Shown here piece after piece: positions 25,468-54,918 of a stretch of 64,000 nucleotides of DNA. Source of the DNA: Candidatus Bathyarchaeota archaeon (GTDB taxonomy: Archaea; Thermoproteota; Bathyarchaeia; Bathyarchaeales; Bathycorpusculaceae); the NCBI GenBank assembly GCA_026014485.1, contig JAOZIE010000002.1, forward strand, positions 336,874-400,873. Direction: 5' to 3'. The notes beneath the pieces are model-generated. The model did not search any database. It was not told the DNA's origin and saw nothing but the letters and a program-made list of their open reading frames with translations. Position 1 is the stretch's first letter. The number at the start of each line of letters is the position of its first letter. A program made the translations under genes and the position numbers.

Positions 25468-25682
25468 CTTACCTTAGCTGCGCACCTAATAAGCATTTTG
25501 CATACACCACCGCATTTAATGACTCAACAGCCCCTTTCAGCAATTCTGAGCACAAACGACCAAAAATCAAGAACACTACACAAGACAACTTCACTGTACC
25601 ATAAACGCCTACACGCGATTAAACTGAGGGCAAACAAAAACTGAAAAACTTGATGCCCGGCTTGTTAAAGACTTAAACGAGT

Positions 25683-25967
25683 TCACCTCGTTTCAATCGA
25701 AACCCTCTCTTCAGGTAACAAGAATTCTTGAAGCTGTAGCCATTTTGCAAGAAAAACTACACCTTTTTTGGTCGTTGCATATTTGAGCGTATCTGGATGC
25801 ACTTCAATCAGGCATAAGTCTTGAAGTTGCTGCAGGCAATCTTGCAGACAGCTAAAAGACAGGTTCACTTCTTGCATTATCCCAGTTTTGATTTGTGGCG
25901 ATTTACATATCTGAAGTATTTCCGTAAGAATCTGCAAACGGCTTCTTTTCAAGATACAGGTTTGCAT
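25683..25967 (-). CDS. Small archaeal winged-helix regulator (HTH_45-like)
   Basis: 94 residues. RSRLQILTEILQIC and KTGIMQEVNLSFSCLQDCLQQL form helices 1-3 of a winged helix. The wing reads LKYATTKKGVVFLAKW. This layout matches the abundant archaeal HTH_45 (pfam14947) family of transcription factors. The target is unknown. It stands alone, and no dyad was found in the 215 bp between it and the dtxR operators. Confidence 0.75.
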   Translation of the reverse strand: MQTCILKRSRLQILTEILQICKSPQIKTGIMQEVNLSFSCLQDCLQQLQDLCLIEVHPDTLKYATTKKGVVFLAKWLQLQEFLLPEERVSIETR

Positions 25968-26158
25968 GGCTTTTGGCCTTCGGCTAGTTTAGATTTATAA
26001 GAAGCAGCTTGTACACGAACAAAACATAGAAGGTCATCAATATTCTGCCTCTTTCCAAGCGAACTTTCCGTGTTTAGCCTATTCCCCATTTTGCTCGCCA
26101 TGACCAAATTAGGAGAAGAGATTAAAGTGCCATTCCTCGGGAGATTATTGATATCTAC

Positions 26159-26427
26159 TTATTTTTCATAGATGCCGCAACCGACGACCCAGAGGGTACA
26201 CGCTTCTTCTTTCTCAGACGCCTTCTTGTTTTCACACTGTTTATAAACTAAGCAGTTTTCGCAGTGAGATAAAGTGGTTCTGATTTGACAAACTAAAAAT
26301 TATAGCGGGGTACATTGGTTTCTTCTGCTCTGTTTAGGCAGCAGTTTTTTTCATGTTTTGATCTTTTGAGGTTGCATTTGCTACAGGTTTCAAATTGGCT
26401 ACTCGCTTCACAGGTCTCAGACAGCAT
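26159..26427 (-). pseudogene. Small Cys-rich protein, frame broken at a T5 run
   Basis: From ATG 26427, with AAGAGGT 10 nt upstream, 44 residues read MLSETCEASSQFETCSKC and KHEKNCCLNR, then stop at 26293-26295. The -1 frame, joined at the T5 run (26295-26299), continues LVCQIRTTLSHCENC, LVYKQCENKK and CTLWVVGCGIYEK to TAA at 26159-26161, giving 89 residues with 11 Cys. Cys pairs spaced CxxC suggest zinc or iron-sulfur binding. The CENCLVYKQC block resembles CEDCAAYKTC of the 50905 microprotein. No family is recognised. Either a base was lost in sequencing or the gene is dead. Confidence 0.5.
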
Positions 26428-26696
26428 TTCAGGATTACCTCTTGAGGGCATGTGAGGTTAGCGTTGCTTTTAGCAGTATGCGACATAATCTACAGGCACA
26501 ACTTGAGGCTCCTCATAGCTATTATGTCTATATAGAACCAGAGTCTGCAGGTTACAGCTTTGAATCAGCAGCCTTACGGCTAACTAAAAGCACATTGATG
26601 AAAGTGTTTTTTCCCGTCGCGTTTACTCAAGAAGTACCTAAAGCAGGCTTGCGTCCATGAGGCTCAAACGATTGTATTTTTTGGTTGTGGGTTGCT
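26428..26696. other. Intergenic region between Cys-rich gene and phoU
   Basis: Contains the likely promoter of the Cys-rich gene (TATA-like CTATATAG near 26528-26535 on the minus strand). No other gene is supported. Confidence 0.3.
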
Positions 26697-27359
26697 TTAT
26701 CTGAGACTTGCTTTTTTTCCGGTCGCTATGTAAACAACGGCTTCTGTGAGGTATGTTGCATGGTCGGCAATTCGCTCTAAGTACCTCACCACTAGCACGT
26801 TAGTGACGGTACATTCGTTTGTGATTTCTGCGCGTTCAACGATTTTGTTCAGACACTGGGAGTACAGTTCATCTACTTCAGTCTCGGTTTCTGTCACTAT
26901 TTTGACAAGTTCTGTGTCGAAGCTCTTGAGGGCAGTATTGCTTATCTTCACCATTTGAAGAACTTTTTCGCCCATCACCCCGATGTTTTCATGGACCCAT
27001 TTGTCACAGCTATCGAGCTTGCCAAAGCGTTTGCCGAGGTATGATATGTCCCAGGCGTATCTTCCGTAACGTTCGAAGTCATAGGCGATTTTCATGTAAG
27101 AGTTTATGATTCTCAGGTCGGACGCTACAGGCTGGTATTTAGCTATTAAACTGAAAGATTTCTCTTCTACTTCAACAGTCATAGCTACCAAAACCTCGGA
27201 GAGTTCATGCACGTCTTCTGATGTATCTTTGCCCTTAACGAAACCGCCGATTGCAATGGTCAACGCTTTCTCAGCGACTTCACCCATCTTAAAAACGGTC
27301 GCGGTTAATTGCTCTAGACCTTTATCCATGAGTCTTTGCATATTCTTCACCTTAACCAA
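26697..27359 (-). CDS. phoU: Phosphate uptake regulator PhoU
   Basis: 220 residues, all helical, with two PhoU repeats. Metal-binding E/DxxxD motifs are seen as [15 protein letters not shown] and [15 protein letters not shown]. PhoU restrains the Pst transporter when phosphate is plentiful. The start overlaps the pstB end by eight bases, so it is the last gene of pstSCAB-phoU. Confidence 0.92.
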
Positions 27360-28119
27360 ACTTTCCTGTTATGTATTTTTCTGTCAATTCGCTTTTGGGG
27401 TTTTCAAACACTGTAGTGGTGTCTCCAAACTCTATCAGCTGCCCCAGATACATGAAGGCTGTATAGTCGGATACACGCCCTGCCTGCTGCATATTATGGG
27501 TAACAATGACTACAGTGTAGTTTTCTTTGAGTTGCACAACCAACTCCTCAATTTTTGCGGTGGCGATAGGGTCTAACGCTGAGCAGGGTTCATCCATGAG
27601 AATAACTTCTGGCTGCAGAGCTATAGCCCTTGCAATACAAAGCCGCTGTTGTTGACCGCCCGAGATGCTGGTTCCAGGTTTTTTAAGGTCATCTTTCACC
27701 TCATCCCAAAGAGTAGCTTGCTCAAGGCTAGTCCTAACTACTTTATCCAAGTTCTTGCCTTTCTTTGTGCCAGTTAATCGAAGCCCAGCAGCCACATTAT
27801 CATAAATCGACATTGTTGGAAAGGGGTTAGGTTTCTGGAAGACCATTCCAACGCGGCGCCGAACCCTGACGGGGTCAACTTCGTTGCCGTATATGTCTGT
27901 GCCATCCAGCAGAATCTGCCCAGACATTCTTGCTCCTGGAACCAACTCATGCATGCGGTTGAGGGTTCGGATGAACGTGGATTTTCCGCATCCTGAAGGT
28001 CCAATAATGGCGGTAACTGTATGGGCTTTGATGGACATGCTAATGTCTTTTAGGACTTGTTTTTGACCGAACCAGGCGTTCAGGTTTACGCTGCTCATTT
28101 TTTCTTCAAGGTTGCTCAT
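27352..28119 (-). CDS. pstB: Phosphate ABC transporter ATPase PstB
   Basis: 255 residues. Walker A is GPSGCGKST, the ABC signature is SGGQQQR, Walker B is [13 protein letters not shown] and the switch His is in [11 protein letters not shown]. The PstB-specific [11 protein letters not shown] block follows Walker A. It powers phosphate import through PstC/PstA. It overlaps phoU by eight bases and lies seven bases after pstA. Confidence 0.96.
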
Positions 28120-28126
28120 TTTTCTT

Positions 28127-28957
28127 TTACCTTCTTAGTCTACCTCTACTTGCTAATCTTACACCAATATTGAGAACTAGAACCATCAAAATCAATATCA
28201 ACGCGGCGCCCCAAGCCTCAGCCTGCAATTCAGCGGAGGGCTGTCGGGAATTAAGGAAAATTCTTAGCGGCAAGGCATCCATCGGCTGATTCATTCCTTG
28301 GAAGAAATAGCTGTTTCCCATAATTGTCAGCAGGATAGGTGCGGTTTCGCCTGCAACGCGGGCAACTGCTAGAAGGGTACCTGTAATCATGCCGTTTTTT
28401 GCGGAGGGCAATACAACGCTGAAGATAGTTCGCCATCTATGTGCGCCCAGAGCCATTGATGCTTCCCGTACGCTATTTGGTACAAGCTTAATGGATTCCT
28501 CGGTTGTTCTTGCAACTATAGGAACCAGCATGAATGACAATGCAATGGCGCCTGCTATCGGTGAGAAGGTTCCGATTAAGCCGACGACTATTATGCTATA
28601 TGCAGTGATACCCACCACTATGGAGGGGAACTCTGTGAGTATGTCGTTTATGGTTCGCATCCAGGAGGCGTATTTGTTATTTCCATACTCAGCCAAGTAA
28701 ATGCCGGATAATACGCCCAGAGGAATGCCCATGATGCTGGTTAAGCCGATTAAGATGAGGGTGCCCTGTATGGCGGGTCCGATACCGCCTTGTAACCCGT
28801 TGGCGGTCAGAAACTCAAGGTTGATTTGGGGAGCGCCCCTAGCTATGACTTCATAGAGAATGCTTAGCAGGGGAACAACAGCTATGACGACGCAGAGCAA
28901 GCATAGTACGAAGAACAGTTTATTCTTGAATTTTCTAAAGCCGTAACTGTGGAACAT
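28127..28957 (-). CDS. pstA: Phosphate ABC transporter permease PstA
   Basis: 276 residues with six hydrophobic helices. The EAA-type loop is [20 protein letters not shown], contacting the ATPase. It pairs with PstC to form the channel. Its start overlaps the stop of pstC by one base. Confidence 0.95.
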
Positions 28958-29898
28958 TACTCTACGGCGCCTCCCTTAACTTTCAGAACCCGTGTCACCA
29001 TCACATGCGCCACGATGTTTATGATTAGACTTATCAGAAGCAGAACCAGCCCCGCCCCGATGTATGCTGATTTCTCCAGCGGGGTCGGAGCCTCCAAGAA
29101 GCCATTTGCAATCAGAGAGGGCAAAGTTTGACCTGGACTGAAAAGTGAGGTAGGCATTGCGTTTGGGGCGTTGCCTATAACCATGGTTACGGCCATAGTT
29201 TCGCCAACAGCTCTTCCTAAACCGAGAATTACGGCACCGAAAATTCCTGAGCGCCCGTAGCTGAGTACCCAGTGGCGGATAACCTCCCATTTGGTGGCGC
29301 CTATGCTGTAGGCTCCTTCGCGGATGGAGTCAGGAACAGCTGTAAGTACCTCTCTTGAGACGGAGGCTACCGTGGGAATAATCATTATTGCCAGAATTAT
29401 TCCTGCAGTAAAGAAGTCAAGACCAAGGGGTGTTCCGCTGAAAAGCGGAAACCAACCCAAATATGTGTTCAGGGGCGTTTCAACGTAGTTCTGAACCCAA
29501 AAACGAAGAATAAACAAGCCCCAAAGCCCAAATATCACACTAGGAACCGCAGCAAGCAGCTCCACAAGGTAGGATATGGGAACTTTCACCGCTTTGGGAG
29601 CCATCTCTACAAGAAAAATGGCGATACCTAAACTGAGGGGAACACCAATCAGCAGGGCGATGCTTGAAGTGACCAATGTTCCCATAACAAATGGAAGCAC
29701 GCCGAAGGATTCTCTTCCTATGACGGGGTTCCAGTTTTTGCCAATCAGGAAGTTTATGCCTTCCTGCTGCAGAATCAGGGTTGATCCAGTGATTAGGATA
29801 TATGCATTAATTATGAGGATTACGGCTGCTGAAGCTGCCATGACTGCAGCTAAGACCTTGAAGATGTTGTCGCCGGTTAGCTTCTTAGTCATGCACAT
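28957..29898 (-). CDS. pstC: Phosphate ABC transporter permease PstC
   Basis: 313 residues with six hydrophobic helices and the EAA loop SIREGAYSIGATKWEVIRHW. The region PFVMGTLVTSSIALLIGVPL is typical of PstC. It is the first permease gene after pstS, with a 60-bp gap. Confidence 0.95.
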   Translation of the reverse strand: MCMTKKLTGDNIFKVLAAVMAASAAVILIINAYILITGSTLILQQEGINFLIGKNWNPVIGRESFGVLPFVMGTLVTSSIALLIGVPLSLGIAIFLVEMAPKAVKVPISYLVELLAAVPSVIFGLWGLFILRFWVQNYVETPLNTYLGWFPLFSGTPLGLDFFTAGIILAIMIIPTVASVSREVLTAVPDSIREGAYSIGATKWEVIRHWVLSYGRSGIFGAVILGLGRAVGETMAVTMVIGNAPNAMPTSLFSPGQTLPSLIANGFLEAPTPLEKSAYIGAGLVLLLISLIINIVAHVMVTRVLKVKGGAVE

Positions 29899-29958
29899 CT
29901 GCTCGCATTCTTAATCATGAAATAAAAAAAATTGTGGGAATGCATTTGTCTTATGCTC

Positions 29959-31152
29959 TCAGTGTGTTGTTAGGTGTTGCCCGTTGAACGTTATTGAATT
30001 CAGCGTTTCTTCATTGAGCGCCACAAGGTTTGCTGGAAGAGATGCGTACTCCAAGGCAGGTGCCAATGCCTGACCATCATGGACAACATACCAAACGTAC
30101 TGCACTAGTTGCGTTGCTTTGTCTAAAGTCATTCCTGGGATTACGTTGAGTTCTTGATAGAGTAGCATGTAGGTCGGCGTCACAATCGGATAAGCCTGCT
30201 CACCAGAAGTATTCAGCAAGACCACGTTCTCCCAACTTTCGCTACCCGAAGGTAACCCACTTGACGGAAGAGACTGAGCCGCCGCAGTAGTAGACTCCAA
30301 CGAAGGCAAAACAAAATTACCCGCGGCATTCTGAATTGCTGCGACCGGTACACCGTTTTGGAGAGCATAAGCTAACTCTATGTAGCCAACTGAGTATTGG
30401 GTTTGTGATATTGTTGCTGCGACGTTTGCGTTTCCAGCTGCACCTAAGCCTCCTGGCCATTGAACTGAAGTTCCGCTTCCGACATCATTATCCCAAGCAG
30501 AGCTTACCAAACAAAGGTACTTAGTGAACCAGTTTGTAGTTCCAGAATTATCTGACCTATGAACGGTGGTTATTGCGTGGTCGGGAAGGGTTACGCCAGA
30601 GTTAATTGCGGCTATGGCGGGGTCGTTCCAGTTGGTGATTGTACCGAGGTATATGTTTGCTATGATTTCGCCTGTCAGTTTTAATTCTGAAGAGACACCA
30701 GGCAGGTTGTAGGCTACCGTGATTGCGCCGATTGTTTCAGGTATGTGTAGTGCGTTAGGTGCTGCTTCACGTTGAGTGGCTGTTAACGGTGCGTCTGAGC
30801 ATGCGAAGTCCACGGTTTTGCTGGTAAAAGAAGATACTCCTTGCCCGCTGCCAACGCCTTGATAGTTAATTTGGACGCTGGGTTTGATGTTGGTGGTGTA
30901 GTGTACGATGGTGGCGTTTAGAAATGGCTGTGGGAATGTTGCGCCAGCACCGTTTAAGGTTACAGGGGCACTGGATGTGGGGGACACGCTTGGAGATGCG
31001 CTCGGTGAGGATGTCGGTGTCTGGGTTGGATTAGTGGAGGGGGTAGGTGTGGGGGTTGCTGCAGGAGTTTGAAGGGCGGTGTATGCAAATACGCCTCCTA
31101 TGATGATTACGATTGCAACTATTGCTGCTGCAACTGTATACATAGTTTTCAT
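29959..31152 (-). CDS. pstS: Phosphate-binding protein PstS, membrane-tethered
   Basis: 397 residues. An N-terminal helix (about 5-27) anchors the protein, followed by a Pro/Thr/Ser linker (about 30-65). The binding domain opens with LNGAGATFPQPF, has GVGSGQGVSSF and VDFACSDAPLT and the phosphate-loop HRSDNSGTTNWFTKYL. It captures phosphate outside the cell for PstCAB. It heads the operon, with its promoter in the region shared with the AbrB-PhoU regulator gene. Confidence 0.95.
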   Translation of the reverse strand: MKTMYTVAAAIVAIVIIIGGVFAYTALQTPAATPTPTPSTNPTQTPTSSPSASPSVSPTSSAPVTLNGAGATFPQPFLNATIVHYTTNIKPSVQINYQGVGSGQGVSSFTSKTVDFACSDAPLTATQREAAPNALHIPETIGAITVAYNLPGVSSELKLTGEIIANIYLGTITNWNDPAIAAINSGVTLPDHAITTVHRSDNSGTTNWFTKYLCLVSSAWDNDVGSGTSVQWPGGLGAAGNANVAATISQTQYSVGYIELAYALQNGVPVAAIQNAAGNFVLPSLESTTAAAQSLPSSGLPSGSESWENVVLLNTSGEQAYPIVTPTYMLLYQELNVIPGMTLDKATQLVQYVWYVVHDGQALAPALEYASLPANLVALNEETLNSITFNGQHLTTH

Positions 31153-31220
31153 TTTGTATTCCTCTTTGGACTACATACCTGCAGCTGCATTATATGACTG
31201 ACCCCCATAATGTTTATAGA

Positions 31221-31245
31221 CTATATAGCTATGATTTGTATATAG
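31221..31245. promoter_or_regulatory. CTATATA...TATATAG dyad between pstS and regulator
   Basis: CTATATA (31221-31227) and TATATAG (31239-31245) are an inverted repeat in the 148-bp divergent region. They may be the two TATA boxes of the divergent genes, or a Pho-type operator. A similar pair with a 15-bp spacer recurs at 32414-32442, where no divergent gene exists, which favours a regulatory site. Confidence 0.45.
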
Positions 31246-31300
31246 CAACACAAAGATTAAACATAGAAAACGTAGAAAATACGCAAAGGGGACCAACGAA

Positions 31301-32350
31301 TTGACCAATTCAACTCATGACGAAACCGAGGAGCAACGAAAACTCCAAATCACAGGCGGGTCAACCTACATACTTTCCCTGCCAAAAGAGTGGATAACCA
31401 AAAACCAGCTGAAAAAAGGAAGCTCAATGCGGGTCCGAGAAGAAGAAGACGGCTCACTCGCCATTATGCCCCCCAAACTTACAAAACAAGAAAAGCAGGA
31501 TGACGCCTTCATCAAGGTGCCGCCTACCGACAACCCAGATGCAGTTATGAGAAAAGCAATATCAGCATACCTAGTCGGCTACAACATTATTCACATCAGA
31601 GCCCAAGGTCAAAACCCGCTTGCAGCAAAAGTTAGAAACCACCTCAAAAACTTTGCAAGAAACTACCTTGTAGGAACAGAAATCGTTATAGACACACCAA
31701 CCGAGTTGACGCTGCAGGTTTTGCTTAATTACCCCGAACTGACGGTTCAAAGCGCCCTGAGCAGAATGGCCATTATCGCAGCCTCCATGCATAAAGAAGC
31801 CATAAACGCACTCAAAAACCTCGACTGCGCAGTAGCAAAAGGCGTAATCGAAACTGACCGTGAAGTCAACCGATTCGGCTTATACATCGTGCGGCTGCTG
31901 AAGATGGCGGTTTTAAATTCGCGTATGGTTAGAGAAATCGGTTTGGAAAACCCGCGAGCATGCATCGGCTACAGGTTAATAGCTAAATCTGTGGAACGAA
32001 CAGGGGACCACGCAACCAAAATCGCCGAAAAAGTGGTTTTGATGAAAAAACCAGTGAATGCAGAGCTTCTTGAAAAAATTGAGCCCTTGAGCAGCTTAGC
32101 AATTTCGATGTTTGAAAGCTCCGTTGAAGCCCTATTTAAGCGCGATTATAACCGTGCAGAAAACGTAATCGCCAAGATAAAGGAAGTGCACAAGTTGGAG
32201 AGGGAAGCAGTTCTCTCCTCTAAAGATGTGAACATTGAGGAAATCGCAAACCTGCGACTTGTAATAGAGAGCGTCCGAAGAACCGCGGAGTACGCAAGTG
32301 ACATCTCGGAAGTTGTCTTGAACATGAACGTAGAATCCGTCATCAGCTAA
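31301..32350 (+). CDS. AbrB-PhoU fusion, archaeal phosphate-responsive regulator
   Basis: 349 residues with a TTG start at 31301. The N-terminal SpoVT/AbrB swapped-hairpin DNA-binding domain reads TGGSTYILSLPKEWITKNQL (about 18-37). The rest is a PhoU-like helical domain with RTGDHATKIAEKV and RRTAEYASDISEVV metal motifs. Archaeal proteins of this type are taken to sense phosphate status and bind pst promoters. It is divergent from pstS and is the likely regulator of that operon. Confidence 0.85.
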   Translation: MTNSTHDETEEQRKLQITGGSTYILSLPKEWITKNQLKKGSSMRVREEEDGSLAIMPPKLTKQEKQDDAFIKVPPTDNPDAVMRKAISAYLVGYNIIHIRAQGQNPLAAKVRNHLKNFARNYLVGTEIVIDTPTELTLQVLLNYPELTVQSALSRMAIIAASMHKEAINALKNLDCAVAKGVIETDREVNRFGLYIVRLLKMAVLNSRMVREIGLENPRACIGYRLIAKSVERTGDHATKIAEKVVLMKKPVNAELLEKIEPLSSLAISMFESSVEALFKRDYNRAENVIAKIKEVHKLEREAVLSSKDVNIEEIANLRLVIESVRRTAEYASDISEVVLNMNVESVIS

Positions 32351-32413
32351 AACTACACGGATAAAGCGCGGGTTTTGCAGGTTCCAGTTCGCCGCTGAAA
32401 CACCCCCCTTATT

Positions 32414-32442
32414 CTATATACCCTAAGGAAGCCTCTATATAG
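32414..32442. promoter_or_regulatory. Second CTATATA...TATATAG dyad, upstream of microprotein
   Basis: CTATATA (32414-32420) and TATATAG (32436-32442) flank 15 bp. It resembles the pst dyad at 31221-31245. The right arm is a good TATA box for the small ORF starting at 32498. No gene lies on the minus strand to use the left arm, so an operator is plausible. Confidence 0.4.
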
Positions 32443-32497
32443 TATTTGGAAACTGCAAATTAACCGATGCCCCACTCAGCTACTAGCAGGGATAGAT

Positions 32498-32575
32498 ATG
32501 AAGCAGAAAAAGGACCCCGTGAAGGAACCCGAAGGAAAGGAAACAGAAGAAATCATCTACGTTGCCCATATTTGA
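32498..32575 (+). CDS. 25-residue microprotein with EIIYVAHI C-terminus
   Basis: ATG 32498 to TGA 32573-32575. A Lys/Glu-rich N-terminal part is followed by TEEIIYVAHI. The C-terminus matches that of the 23-residue ORF at 51197-51268 (PEIVYFTHI), which supports both as real genes of one tiny family. A weak AGGGAT precedes the ATG, and a TATA box lies about 60 bp upstream. It is too short for ordinary gene callers. Function is unknown. Confidence 0.55.
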   Translation: MKQKKDPVKEPEGKETEEIIYVAHI

Positions 32576-32597
32576 CTGCAAAACGTTTGGCGTAGAC

Positions 32598-33143
32598 CTA
32601 ATGGTTTTTCTTCGTTTTGTTTGTTGACGAGTAATATTCAATCAGGTCATGGGTAGACCAAGGCAAGCAATCTTCGCTTTTGAATCCGAGAAGAGCAGCG
32701 TATCTTTGGGTTTCACTGGCGGATTGGGCCTCTATCTCCAGGAATTCGGGGATGTAAGCGTATTTTCCTTCGTATAAGTCAAAGTCGAAACGTGCACGGT
32801 CAAGCGTATAGCTAACCCTGCGTTTAGTCATGCATTCAATGGCTAACAACCCTAAGAATTCAAGAATGCTCCGTGCAGCTTTTGCATCGGAAACTCTAAC
32901 CGTATACTCCTGAGCCACCTTTGCATTTTTGCTTTTTTGAACTTTTTTAAACGTCAACTCAACTTTGTCGTTTTCTTTCCTGAGGCGCAACAGGTTTTTT
33001 GCCTTAATTATCGTGTGTTCTGGAAAATCAAAGAAAACCGTTTCGATTTTGCCATCAAACACTTTTTGGGCGCCTAAACGGGCAAGTTGTTCCTCAAGCG
33101 TTTCTCGGGTAACCTCTAAAATCTTGACTTCCACTTCTCTCAT
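32598..33143 (-). CDS. CYTH-domain protein, CyaB/thiamine-triphosphatase superfamily
   Basis: 181 residues. The ExExK signature is EVEVKI at the N-terminus. The tunnel strands follow: LLRLRKENDKVELTFKK, EYTVRVSD and the paired basic/acidic KRRVSYTLDRARFDFDLY plus FLEIEAQ. Class IV adenylate cyclases and triphosphatases share this tunnel fold. Archaeal members are mostly uncharacterised, so the nucleotide or polyphosphate substrate is not known. It runs convergent to the microprotein gene, 22 bp away. Confidence 0.85.
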   Translation of the reverse strand: MREVEVKILEVTRETLEEQLARLGAQKVFDGKIETVFFDFPEHTIIKAKNLLRLRKENDKVELTFKKVQKSKNAKVAQEYTVRVSDAKAARSILEFLGLLAIECMTKRRVSYTLDRARFDFDLYEGKYAYIPEFLEIEAQSASETQRYAALLGFKSEDCLPWSTHDLIEYYSSTNKTKKNH

Positions 33144-33266
33144 GAAGCACCATTAACCGTTCTACAGTTAAAAAATGTGTACGCGGATGGCGCAGGGTGG
33201 TGTTTAAGGGGCGCGGGCGGCTTTTGTTAACTGTGAAGAACTGTTTGCTAAAAGGAGGAGATTCCG

Positions 33267-50565: not shown

Positions 50566-50805
50566 TTATTGTTTCTCCTCAACTACAATCATGGTGAGGG
50601 TGGAACGCACTTTGTCTAGTCGGCGGATGCGCCAAGTAACGATTTCTTTTAGTCTGTCCATCGTGTCAGCTTGTACGCGCGCCACTATATCGTAGACACC
50701 GTAAACCGCCGATGACTCCCTTACGCCCTCGACTGTTCGTAGCTCTTTTAACACATCGGTTTCCGATCCGATTTCGGTATTAATCAACACAAACGCTGTA
50801 GGCAT
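50566..50805 (-). CDS. Lrp/AsnC ligand-binding (RAM) domain protein
   Basis: 79 residues, ferredoxin-like RAM domain only: AFVLINTEIGSETDVLKELR, VEGVRESSAVYGVYDIVARV and VRSTLTMIVVEE. With no helix-turn-helix it acts as a stand-alone amino-acid sensor or partner of a full Lrp protein. It is 99 bp from the microprotein operon on the same strand. Confidence 0.88.
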   Translation of the reverse strand: MPTAFVLINTEIGSETDVLKELRTVEGVRESSAVYGVYDIVARVQADTMDRLKEIVTWRIRRLDKVRSTLTMIVVEEKQ

Positions 50806-50904
50806 GTTACAATCCTCACATACATTGAGGTGGTAAGCATTAAAATATTTTTCTAAGCTTCACCTACCCCCTAAAAGCGGCAACACCACGTGCAACAAGC
50901 AGAG

Positions 50905-51063
50905 TTAATGGCACTGAACGGGGAATTCTTCTAGTTCAACGTGCTGTTCGATTTCTGAGCTTTGCAGTTTCTTCTGTAAACGGCACGTTTTGTAGGCTGC
51001 GCAGTCTTCGCAGTTTAGGTTGCCGTTTCGGGTTTGGCACTCGATGATTATCGTGTGGTACAT
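50905..51063 (-). CDS. 52-residue Cys-rich microprotein
   Basis: Third gene of a three-gene microprotein operon. ATG 51063 is four bases after the stop of the membrane microprotein. The block CEDCAAYKTC gives a CxxC pair and a third Cys, similar to CENCLVYKQC at 26159-26427. Zinc or iron-sulfur binding is possible. No family is recognised. Confidence 0.65.
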   Translation of the reverse strand: MYHTIIIECQTRNGNLNCEDCAAYKTCRLQKKLQSSEIEQHVELEEFPVQCH

Positions 51064-51067
51064 GCTT

Positions 51068-51175
51068 TTAGACGCTCCGCGCCCGCTTTCGGTAAGTGAC
51101 AACGTAATCTGCGAAGGCTAACATCAGCGAACCCCCGCCTAAACCTACAAGAAGAAAGCTTGCTAAATCCATCAT
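51068..51175 (-). CDS. 35-residue membrane microprotein
   Basis: Second gene of the operon. A strong ribosome site GGAGGTGA precedes the ATG-ATG at 51175. The product has one helix (FLLVGLGGGSLMLAFADYVV) and a basic tail YRKRARSV, so it inserts with the tail inside. No family is recognised. It is tightly spaced between the two other microprotein genes. Confidence 0.65.
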   Translation of the reverse strand: MMDLASFLLVGLGGGSLMLAFADYVVTYRKRARSV

Positions 51176-51196
51176 GCTCTTTCACCTCCCTCCATG

Positions 51197-51268
51197 TTAG
51201 ATGTGGGTGAAGTACACGATTTCGGGCTTCTGAGTAGCCTGCTTCTTTTCTGTGTATTCGGTCTTCAT
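51197..51268 (-). CDS. 23-residue microprotein with EIVYFTHI C-terminus
   Basis: First gene of the operon, ATG 51268 to TAA 51197-51199, with GGTGAAG as ribosome site. Lys/Thr/Gln-rich N-terminal half and KPEIVYFTHI at the end. The end matches EEIIYVAHI of the 25-residue ORF at 32498-32575. This shared tail is the reason to take both as real. Function unknown; it could be a peptide signal, a RiPP precursor or a small metal ligand. Confidence 0.62.
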   Translation of the reverse strand: MKTEYTEKKQATQKPEIVYFTHI

Positions 51269-51314
51269 TTTTCTTCACCATTCTTTCTTTTTTGTTAGGA
51301 AGTAAGCCGCGGAA

Positions 51315-51355
51315 GCTTAAAAGAGTAGTTGAGATTTGTTCATAAAAATTATGAA
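51315..51355 (-). promoter_or_regulatory. Promoter and dyad of the microprotein operon
   Basis: TTCATAA (51339-51345) and TTATGAA (51349-51355) are perfect 7-bp arms with AAA between. A TATA-like CTTTTAAG is at about 51315-51322 on the minus strand, about 50 bp before the first ATG. The dyad sits just upstream of the TATA box, where an activator or repressor could bind. Confidence 0.45.
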
Positions 51356-51580
51356 TAACTAGACACACAAACATCTACAGAACATATTTTTGGTCACACA
51401 TCACACTTTCAACCAAATAACTAAAAAAAACAGGCACCCAACCGCTAGCTACCTATACAGATGACGTTTCAACTGCAAAAAAATCGGAAAAACAAAACCT
51501 CACCGCTGAAACGTTCGCTGCTTCTGCTCCAGAAGGCGGGGGAGCAAACTTAATTTCTGACTTTAATACAACACGTAATT
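51356..51580. other. Intergenic region between the microprotein operon and the rSAM operon
   Basis: Holds the divergent promoter of the 51581 gene; an AATTTCTGACTTTAATAC stretch near 51551-51568 is AT-rich. No gene is seen. Confidence 0.3.
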
Positions 51581-51955
51581 ATGAAAGTCACGTCAATTTT
51601 AGGCGCGGTAGCCGCTGCAGTCCTGCTCCTCTTAGGCTTCATATTCATCTTGTCGGCAGGAGCCGAAGCGGTCAGCGCGCAGCCGGGACTGCAGGCGTTG
51701 AGGCTGATCGAAGGCGGAGTGATGCTTACCGTCGGCTTCGCATTGGTTTACGTTACCTATATTTTCTCGCGGAAACCCACAACCATCGTGCAGCGGCTTG
51801 AGCTTTCGGGAGCCATGAAAGCATCCTCCATACAGTGCCCCAACTGCTCCGCCTCATTGGACACAAAGAAAATCAAAATTGTGCAGGGCGTACCCTACGC
51901 GACGTGCTCCTACTGCGGAACCACATTTGAAGTAACTGAGGAGCCAAAATGGTGA
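51581..51955 (+). CDS. Two-helix membrane protein with cytosolic zinc ribbon
   Basis: 124 residues. Two membrane helices (about 5-25 and 44-62) are followed by a zinc ribbon with C86/C89 (CPNC) and C109/C112 (CSYC). Its stop overlaps the next start (ATGGTGA), so it is translationally coupled to the DUF2207-like protein. It is probably part of the same membrane complex. No family is named with confidence. Confidence 0.72.
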   Translation: MKVTSILGAVAAAVLLLLGFIFILSAGAEAVSAQPGLQALRLIEGGVMLTVGFALVYVTYIFSRKPTTIVQRLELSGAMKASSIQCPNCSASLDTKKIKIVQGVPYATCSYCGTTFEVTEEPKW

Positions 51956-53571
51956 AAAAACGCTTCCTCCTCGCTTTTTTGGCGGCGACACTGATTTTCT
52001 CGGCTGCGGCGACTACTTTTTCCAGCGGGCAGACCCGAGTTTACAGCTTCAATCAGGAATGGACGAAAATCTGGATAAACCAAGACGGCACAATCGACCT
52101 ATTCTACAATGTTAGCCTAACGCTTCATTCAGGGTTACCCATCAACTACGTGACGTTGGGGCAGCCTAAAAGCGACTTTATTATTGGAGAAACAGTTGAC
52201 CAATATGGCAACTACTTGGATGCCTCCAAAGCCTCTGATGGCACAGGCGTAAAAGTAAATCTTGACTCGCCGCTGACGGAAGGCAACACAATATGGTTTA
52301 CGGTAATCACAAACGTTGCAGGCATGATAAGCCCTGACAGTACAAATCCAGGCAACTTAGGCATGATGTTTGCTCCCGAATGGCAAGCTGTACCCATAAA
52401 CGATGTGCGCATCCAAATTGTCCTGCCGCCAAACGTAACCGTCAACGAGGTGAAAACGCCGCCAAACTATGATTGGAACAGCACCTCAACCGAACCTGAC
52501 GGGCGACTAGCGGTTTACTGGGAACTCGCCGTTTTACAAGCCAACCAGCAGTACTTAGTAGGCGTTTCGTTCCCTGAACAGTACCTTCCAAACTACAGTA
52601 GCAGCAGCGGAATCTCCCCGCTGGAAACCATAGGCATAGTCGTTGGGGCAATCGGCGCAGGCATAGCCTTAATTGTCGTGGTGTTTATCGCCCGCAAAAG
52701 AACCTACTATGCACCAAAAGTCAGCATGGAAACCTTGGGGATACGCCGCGGCTTAACCGCCGTGGAAGCCTCCTACCTACTAGGGCTAAAGCCCACACAA
52801 ATTGTTACAGAAATCCTCTACAGCCTGCTACAGAAACGCGCGGTCTGGACGGAAGCCACCAACCCCGCCTTGAAGCTGCGCATCATGCCCGCTTTCAAGG
52901 ATAAGAAGGGACCTGAAGATAATCCGCTGCGTTACTACGAAATCGACTTTCGCGAAGCCGTCAAACCTGATGGCACCTTGGATGAGGAAAGGCTGGCGAA
53001 TGCAGTTATGTACCTGCGGGATACGTTGGAGCAGAAGCTGCGGGGATACAGCCGCAAAGACACCTTGGAGTACTACCGCAAAATTGTGGATAAAGCGTGG
53101 GGGCAGGTGGAGCAGGCAGGCACGGGCGAGTTAGCCTCGAAAGCCTACGATGAACAGCTACTTTGGCTCCTGCTGGACCCCAACTATAAAGGGCGCACCC
53201 AAACGACGTTTAAGAGTCGCTCCTTTGAACCCAGCCCCTTCTGGTTCTGGTACTGGTACGGCTACACCCACTACAAACCCAACCCCGCTTACAAGCCCAA
53301 CATCAACGCTCCAGCACAGGCAGCTAAGCCTCCGACGATTCCAGGCGCGGACTTCGCAAACAACATCGCCACTTCGCTAGAGAAAACCTCAAGCAACATC
53401 GTGGGTAACCTTGAAAAATTCGCCGCATCCATTCTGCCAGCTGCACCCCCCAAAGCCGCGCATCAGCCAGCCCATCAGAAATCGGACTGCGTCTGCGCCT
53501 GTGCAGCGTGTGCTTGTGCTTGCGCTTGCGTTTCTTGTGCGTGTGCATGTGCGGGTGGAGGTGTCGGATAG
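51949..53571 (+). CDS. DUF2207-like membrane protein with ten-Cys C-terminal tail
   Basis: 540 residues. A signal peptide (about 1-26) and a large extracellular beta domain (about 30-215) precede a membrane helix (about 226-247). The cytosolic part (about 250-430) resembles DUF2207-type domains, with RRGLTAVEASYLLGL. A linker rich in Trp, Tyr and Pro leads to the tail. Residues 514-534 contain ten Cys alternating mostly with Ala (CVCACAAC, then CACACAC and CACAC), ending GGGVG. The stop abuts the ATG of a radical SAM enzyme, so the tail is a probable substrate for it. Similar Cys- or Gly-rich tails beside radical SAM genes occur elsewhere, as far as I recall. Confidence 0.78.
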   Translation: MVKKRFLLAFLAATLIFSAAATTFSSGQTRVYSFNQEWTKIWINQDGTIDLFYNVSLTLHSGLPINYVTLGQPKSDFIIGETVDQYGNYLDASKASDGTGVKVNLDSPLTEGNTIWFTVITNVAGMISPDSTNPGNLGMMFAPEWQAVPINDVRIQIVLPPNVTVNEVKTPPNYDWNSTSTEPDGRLAVYWELAVLQANQQYLVGVSFPEQYLPNYSSSSGISPLETIGIVVGAIGAGIALIVVVFIARKRTYYAPKVSMETLGIRRGLTAVEASYLLGLKPTQIVTEILYSLLQKRAVWTEATNPALKLRIMPAFKDKKGPEDNPLRYYEIDFREAVKPDGTLDEERLANAVMYLRDTLEQKLRGYSRKDTLEYYRKIVDKAWGQVEQAGTGELASKAYDEQLLWLLLDPNYKGRTQTTFKSRSFEPSPFWFWYWYGYTHYKPNPAYKPNINAPAQAAKPPTIPGADFANNIATSLEKTSSNIVGNLEKFAASILPAAPPKAAHQPAHQKSDCVCACAACACACACVSCACACAGGGVG

Positions 53572-54918
53572 ATGAGTTGGATGAACAGGGTTTTCCGTAA
53601 GCGGGTGGTTCCTGCGGGACGATACACTTACCGCGGCACAGGCGAATTCACAGGCATGGCACTGCAGCTTCGTGTGGAGTCAAGTGAACGGGGCGTTATG
53701 GTGATTAACGCGAACACGGTGCTTCACCTCAACCCCACCGCGTCAGCATACGCCTACTACTTCATGCAGGGCATGACTAAGGCGGAAGTGGTCAAGAAAA
53801 TCCGCGGCATATTTCGCGTAAACAAAGCCCAAGCAAACGCAGACTACGAAAAACTCGTCTACACCATCAGTACGCTGGCAAAAACCGAGAAAATCTGCCC
53901 TGTCAGCTTCCTCGAAGTGGAAAAAGAGGAACCCTTCAGCTACGACTACACGGCACCATTGCGGATGGACATGGCACTGACTTTCCGCTGCCAAAACAAC
54001 TGCATCCACTGCTATACTGGCGGACCCCAAGAAACCCCCGAGTTGAACACGCAGCAGTGGAAAGAAGCCATAGACCGCCTCAGCGACGTAGGAGTCTTCA
54101 TTTTGACGTTTACAGGCGGTGAGCCTACCCTCCGCAACGACCTGCCCGAACTGCTACTCTACGCCGAAAACAAAGGCATGGTAACTGGGCTGATAACAAA
54201 CGGCAGAAACCTCAAAAACAAAGCCTATGTGGACAAGCTGGAGAAGGCAGGGTTGGATTTTGTGCAGGTCACCTTGGAGTCGCATAAACCCGAAGTCCAC
54301 GACCTGATGACTGCCACCTCTGGAAGCTGGAAGGAAACCGTCGAGGGAATCAGAAACGCCGTTAACTCGCAGATTTACGTCACCACAAACACTACGCTAA
54401 GCAAGCATAATGCAGCGAGCTTCTTGGATACCATAGATTTCATCAAGGGGCTTGGCGTGGACGCTTTCGGTTGCAACAGTCTTATCTACTCAGGGAAAGC
54501 CAGTGCGGTCAGCCAAGAATTCGCCTTAACCATTCAGGATTTGGAGTTGCTGCTGCCGAAAATCCGCGACAAAGCACAACATCTCGGACTCAAATTCCTA
54601 TGGTACACGCCTACGCAGTACTGCCAGTTCGACCCCGTACAGCACGGTTTAGGCGTAAAATCCTGCACCGCCGCCCTCATTAACATGTGTGTGGGACCTA
54701 ACGGCGACGTTTACCCCTGTCAAAGCTATTTTGAGAGCCTCGGCAACATCCTCACTGAAAGCTGGAGTGAAATCTGGAACCATCCCACAGCCAAAAAAAT
54801 CCGCTCCCGCGCCTACGTAGAACCAAAATGTAAAGACTGCCCTCAACTGCAGGTTTGCGGCGGAGGCTGTCCACTTGAACTGCAAAACGGCAAGCTCTTC
54901 TGCGGCGAATCTGCATGA
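53572..54918 (+). CDS. Radical SAM/SPASM enzyme with PqqD-like N-terminus
   Basis: 448 residues. The N-terminal part (about 45-115) has LHLNPTASAYAYYFMQGMTK, like a PqqD/RRE peptide-binding fold. The radical SAM cluster motif is C140-x3-C144-x2-C147 (CQNNCIHC), with GGEP following in FTGGEPTLR. The SPASM domain has C365, C383, then C420-x2-C423-x5-C429-x3-C433 and C444, the canonical auxiliary-cluster pattern. Such enzymes crosslink or otherwise modify Cys-containing peptides. The ATG directly follows the stop of the tail-bearing gene. The chemistry is inference. Confidence 0.9.
   Translation: MSWMNRVFRKRVVPAGRYTYRGTGEFTGMALQLRVESSERGVMVINANTVLHLNPTASAYAYYFMQGMTKAEVVKKIRGIFRVNKAQANADYEKLVYTISTLAKTEKICPVSFLEVEKEEPFSYDYTAPLRMDMALTFRCQNNCIHCYTGGPQETPELNTQQWKEAIDRLSDVGVFILTFTGGEPTLRNDLPELLLYAENKGMVTGLITNGRNLKNKAYVDKLEKAGLDFVQVTLESHKPEVHDLMTATSGSWKETVEGIRNAVNSQIYVTTNTTLSKHNAASFLDTIDFIKGLGVDAFGCNSLIYSGKASAVSQEFALTIQDLELLLPKIRDKAQHLGLKFLWYTPTQYCQFDPVQHGLGVKSCTAALINMCVGPNGDVYPCQSYFESLGNILTESWSEIWNHPTAKKIRSRAYVEPKCKDCPQLQVCGGGCPLELQNGKLFCGESA

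Follow-up and report, generated by a model that had tools for sequence, protein, structure and literature searches.

Microproteins of Bathyarchaeia that share a YFxH[IV] C-terminal tail, one of them encoded in a conserved operon of three microproteins

We analysed a stretch of 64,000 nucleotides (the window, G000:C12) from a Candidatus Bathyarchaeota genome of 2.37 Mb that is 96.5% complete. The following features of the window are considered here:

51197-51268, minus strand: ORF1, 23-aa tail microprotein, MKTEYTEKKQATQKPEIVYFTHI
51068-51175, minus strand: ORF2, 35-aa single-TM microprotein, MMDLASFLLVGLGGGSLMLAFADYVVTYRKRARSV
50905-51063, minus strand: ORF3, 52-aa four-Cys microprotein
50566-50805, minus strand: stand-alone Lrp/AsnC ligand-binding (RAM) domain gene (Pfam PF01037, E 1.2e-12), syntenic with the operon in genome G005
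51340-51356, no strand: palindrome TTCATAA-AAA-TTATGAA upstream of ORF1, partly kept in G005 by pairwise alignment
32498-32575, plus strand: 25-aa tail microprotein, MKQKKDPVKEPEGKETEEIIYVAHI, downstream of an AbrB-PhoU gene
31301-32350, plus strand: AbrB/MazE-PhoU regulator (Pfam PF01895 and PF04014) adjoining the 32498 microprotein
26697-31152, minus strand: pst phosphate transport operon ending in phoU (Pfam: PstS-like, permease, ATPase, PhoU)
26207-26315, minus strand: frameshifted remnant of an ORF3-type Cys microprotein (CENCLVYKQC), the second G000 match in the ORF3 homologue search

A first-pass annotation of this DNA had read three tiny ORFs of 23, 35 and 52 residues on one strand, and all three lie where it placed them. 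ORF1 has GGTGAAG as its ribosome-binding site and ORF2 has GGAGGGAGGTG, and the gap between the ORF2 stop and the ORF3 ATG is exactly the four bases that had been claimed (51064-51067). The separate 25-residue ORF at 32498 also ends in EIIYVAHI, as had been read. Both ORF1 and this ORF are short, have an in-frame start and carry the tail YFxH[IV] at a natural stop codon, exactly so in ORF1 and with Val for Phe at 32498. The palindrome upstream of ORF1 is a possible operator or promoter element. On the opposite strand, positions 51949-53571 encode a membrane protein with a C-terminal Cys-Ala repeat (CVCACAACACACACVSCACACAGGGVG), directly followed at 53572 by a radical SAM/SPASM gene, and the two may form a modified peptide system.

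The three microprotein genes of 50905-51268 form a conserved operon. In genome G043 all three genes are intact and in the same order (MKKEIGKKSKPAKTEVSYFAHV, then MFDYMTLVWIGLGGASLAFAFVDYAYSYKKKVKTESC, then MYRTIIIDCQTKKPNFSCEDCIAYKTC), and G019 has the same three-gene order with ORF3 frame-shifted by a one-base deletion near its start; the expectation that the tail would recur beside membrane and Cys ORFs was thus borne out, with the third gene decayed in one of the two cases. The ORF1-ORF2 pair is also found in G005, of the same genus as the window, as MKNKTAVKKTLVAEKYNVVYFSHI and MIELSSLVWIGLGAGVLLLTFTRYAVSYRRRMRTELY, and in G169 as MKKIKIGKKRLTRKENVYFTHV and MIASSVALIALCASTLTASLAYYAMQYRKLRNN. 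The third position has decayed in G005, where the Lrp-RAM gene is kept downstream of ORF1-ORF2 as in the window, and apparently the same molybdopterin oxidoreductase gene is present as well. Between G043 and G019 the dN/dS of ORF2 is 0.14; the corresponding ratio for ORF1 is uninformative because the two copies differ by only 1 synonymous and 3 nonsynonymous changes.

Homologues of ORF2 occur in five of the seven genus genomes, a second copy in G000 itself included (MDFTATLMWVSLGAGSFGLAFVEYIFSSKKRKAKTA, G000:C2), and they share the pattern GLGxG...Y...[ST]Y[RK][RK], which has no database match. At L252, L253, L256 and L258, ORF2-type TM paralogues are followed by a conserved protein of about 60 aa (L253: MTEKKDKQHIEELKEMIQEKKPREPVEEVLTKFCERHGVS...). 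ORF3 had been described as having CxxC. One CxxC is indeed present, but the protein is better called a four-Cys protein with the spacing C-x8-C-x2-C-x5-C, which is invariant in seven homologues; their alignment gives the consensus MYxTIxLDCQTx6CEDCxAxKTC, with C9, Q10, C18, C21, A23 and C27 invariant. Judged from this cysteine pattern, ORF3 is a candidate metal-binding finger. As a single query against the genome contigs ORF3 retrieved no relatives, and among solved structures only insignificant UBR1 matches (E about 0.25) were returned. The curated cut-off of Pfam was reached neither by ORF3 nor by the L083 TM relative of ORF2 nor by the longer tail proteins described below, and that of NCBIfam was not reached by ORF1, ORF2, ORF3, the L083 TM protein, the L080 tail protein or the longer forms. 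The ORF3-type remnant at 26207-26315 has an intact syntenic copy, MYKTIVLDCQSGGDASHCEDCVAFKKC, in G006 (L067). It falls in a stretch, 25949-26486 on the minus strand, that holds a microprotein cluster between phoU and an HTH_45 gene, two members of which are frame-shifted in the window and intact and syntenic at L067.

The first-pass annotation had proposed a real, uncalled family on the basis of two examples, and had taken recurrence of the tail in related genomes and the pattern of substitutions as the tests of it. The tail does recur, in many genomes of the order. Across 256 genomes of the class, [ED]xxY[FVL][AT]H[IV]-stop gave 23 matches vs 2 for the reversed control, with 2 also for a version of the pattern shifted by one base, and WYFxH[IV]-stop gave 29 matches in class genomes vs 4 for its reversed control. 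All 52 matches (23 + 29) end in a true stop, though the pattern permitted TGG. Of the 23, about 17 close a short ORF for which a plausible start exists. In the whole 2.37 Mb of G000 the only matches to the first pattern are ORF1 and the 32498 ORF, both in the window. Outside the class WYFxH was at chance level, with 6 matches vs 5 reversed in 323 genomes; as far as we searched, the tail family is confined to one order of Bathyarchaeia. Its members are mostly basic proteins of 20-50 residues whose sole strongly shared feature is the extreme C-terminal [ED]xx[WIVSL]YFxH[IV]-COOH. This is a new family of microproteins, and an unusual one, since nothing but its last residues defines it; that it is real we consider close to certain.

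Changes in the tail fall mainly at third codon positions, in keeping with the substitution test named above. At eighteen loci the short Lys-rich ORF upstream of DUF47/PhoU_div ends in WYFxHV or a close variant of it (FIRV, FSNV, FNNV), and over the five conserved tail codons of these copies the summed pairwise differences at codon positions 1, 2 and 3 were 0.63, 0.55 and 2.25, in a test that is not wholly unbiased since the copies were chosen with a protein-level tail profile. The excess at third positions indicates that the tail is under coding constraint, and it is near-invariant while the N-terminal body is unconserved. Some copies of the same set have decayed: L101 has TAA at codon 2, and in L109 and L115 the start codon is not in frame. 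Because of such copies, and because many genomes of the same family lack the tail altogether, it is dispensable.

The range of the tail is wider than the two original examples, since YFxH[IV] also ends proteins of 77-110 aa, which are rarer than the short ones. Mutually related proteins of 77-90 residues with the tail WYFxH[IV] were found at seven loci (one of them frame-shifted), and G005 has a 108-codon open frame, unrelated to this family, that ends in RRKLWYFAHV; all carriers of the longer form are Candidatus Bathyarchaeota, and a search for viral carriage found none. For the 77-90-aa family AlphaFold2 predicted a beta-beta-alpha-beta core, with WYF (84-86) as a strand of its own; the model is modest, built for the long form only from a six-sequence alignment, with a mean pLDDT of 67.9, about 73 in the last block and low confidence in the linker (residues 64-79). 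A fold search with this model returned no solved fold at E <= 0.001. At L249:1661-1867 a paralogue of the long form ends just before the tail, that is, the domain without the tag.

The tail genes adjoin PhoU-type genes in three arrangements, and this repeated proximity to PhoU, DUF47 and polyphosphate genes had not been anticipated in the first-pass annotation. In G006 (L055) the orthologue of the 32498 gene, MEQKKEFEQPNTENRTEEIIYFAHI, follows AbrB-PhoU as in the window, with adjacent genes that we read by eye as ppx and ppk1; among the AbrB-PhoU loci fetched, only those of the window's own genus had a tail gene downstream. Tail copies lie upstream of DUF47/PhoU_div in G002, G007, G019, G043 and many g12 genomes, and a pst-phoU-DUF47 operon of G071, which belongs to another family, has a tail gene as its last gene. 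In G005 (L165), the gene for the tail microprotein MELKEAITIELKEGSLKDNSGNKEEIVYFSHI comes after a ppk2-like gene and faces a ppx-like gene in convergent orientation (both named by eye). Other neighbours of tail genes, partly named by eye, include DsrE, a TFS-like Zn ribbon, a Zn ribbon, SHOCT, YHS and a site-2 protease. In most contexts a co-directional gene begins 12-50 nt past the tail stop, whereas 32498, L055 and L165 are each followed within 23-29 nt by a convergent gene. A second family of Lys-rich microproteins, with the C-terminus [DE]L[VL]DW[FL]LAIDACL[AT]-stop (L215:1003-1113 in G000:C9, L098-L124 and L216-L222), lies directly upstream of DUF47/PhoU_div in 7/7 genus genomes and in several other genera.

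Our preferred reading, to which we would give somewhat under an even chance, is that the microproteins, basic and mostly disordered, carry the tail as a short linear C-terminal docking motif for a putative shared receptor. Such a receptor would grip the Tyr-Phe aromatics together with the carboxy-terminal His-Ile/Val. Beta-strand addition would be the probable mode, which we propose because WYF forms a packed strand in the AlphaFold2 model of the long form. The specific job of each peptide would then be set by its variable Lys-rich body and by a co-encoded partner: ORF2 in the membrane and ORF3 as a putative metal finger in the window, PhoU, DUF47 or polyphosphate enzymes elsewhere. The products of the window operon would together make up a regulator of three parts anchored in the membrane, and the 32498 peptide would serve PhoU-type control as an adaptor for phosphate or polyphosphate. 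Docking fits because the tail is constant while the body is free to vary, because the tail occurs on unrelated proteins, and because a beta strand is modelled at it. Against it we count the dispensability of the tail and the co-directional gene shortly after the stop, which is what a leader peptide acting in cis would also show.

That last point leads to a reading we think unlikely, in which YFxH[IV]-stop would arrest the terminating ribosome under a common signal and thereby regulate the next gene, the peptide itself being idle in trans. The ORFs are tiny, their conservation is confined to the residues just before the stop, and ORF2, DsrE, Zn ribbon, HAD, SHOCT and YHS genes all follow co-directionally at the distance given above. 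However, the convergent next gene at 32498, L055 and L165 leaves nothing to regulate in cis there, the tail gene of L239 comes after DUF47 at the end of a pst operon, and a folded domain is predicted for the 77-90-aa forms, so that this reading covers the stop-adjacent position and the following gene, but neither the 32498 group nor the longer carriers. A role specific to phosphate is also less than likely, though it keeps some real weight: the tail proteins would bind PhoU/DUF47, or polyphosphate through their Lys-rich body, and would control how much phosphate is taken up or stored as polyphosphate, and the other contexts would belong to the same regulon. All three PhoU-type arrangements, the ppk2 and ppx genes of G005 and the ppx and ppk1 genes of G006 are in its favour, but no phosphate gene lies near the three-gene operon or in the DsrE, TFS-like, Zn ribbon and site-2 protease contexts, and many genomes with DUF47 have no tail microprotein. 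It accounts for the phosphate contexts, not for the operon at 50905-51268.

The remaining readings are disfavoured. PqqA-type precursors are about 23 aa long with a Glu shortly before a Tyr near the C-terminus, and the size of ORF1 and its Glu upstream of Tyr resemble theirs; with a radical SAM/SPASM gene at 53572-54918 in the window, the tail could be the core of RiPP precursors with PqqA-like ExxY, modified by a radical SAM enzyme. We regard this as very unlikely, as other tail loci have no conserved radical SAM neighbour (no conserved maturase was found near those of G043, G169, G071, G142, G143, G198 and G161, and the one radical SAM gene of G005 is near a sulfatase only), the putative leader is unconserved, and the tail also ends proteins with a predicted folded domain. 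That the ORFs are chance frames or a non-coding conserved element is scarcely credible: they are very short and some copies have a start codon out of frame, but the reversed and off-frame pattern controls stay far below the tail counts, and the third-position excess, the dN/dS of ORF2 and the three-gene synteny also speak against it. No Rfam match was found in 50700-51600 or 25600-33200, and a non-coding RNA was rejected as a candidate.

Returning to docking, we advance with more reserve the broader proposal of a previously unseen C-terminal peptide code in one Bathyarchaeia order, in which YFxH[IV] would dock many microproteins unrelated to each other, together with a few longer proteins, to one receptor. 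If true, microprotein operons would link phosphate-control, membrane and metal modules to a common hub, and the tail peptides are testable baits for the receptor. With only 5-8 residues conserved, genes this small escape gene callers and homology search, and the family would be an example of how sequence by itself can reveal such microproteins. Its position beside PhoU, DUF47 and polyphosphate genes offers a way into the phosphate control of the Bathyarchaeia, which are a major lineage of uncultured archaea.

Among known systems, arrest leaders of the TnaC/ErmCL type are tiny ORFs conserved beside the stop codon, often with a gene following, and the tail microproteins resemble them in all three respects; they differ in that 32498, L055 and L165 have no downstream gene available for regulation (a co-directional gene does follow in many other contexts) and in that longer proteins with a predicted domain share the tail. 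ORF1 is unlike PqqA in its ExxY rather than ExxxY spacing, its lack of a conserved radical SAM partner and its variable N-terminal body. The C(P)XCG zinc-finger micro-proteins of Haloferax are archaeal proteins of <70 aa with four metal-ligand cysteines (PMC10716476, PMC11241148). ORF3, too, is a small archaeal protein with four cysteines, but its C-x8-C-x2-C-x5-C arrangement has one CxxC and no C(P)XCG pair, and no sequence relation to the class was found; as the two required C(P)XCG motifs are absent from the alignment (C9, C18-x2-C21, C27), membership was rejected. Although no transporter partner is encoded alongside it, ORF2 resembles the small single-TM regulators KdpF and AcrZ in being a 35-aa single-TM peptide with a basic C-terminus.
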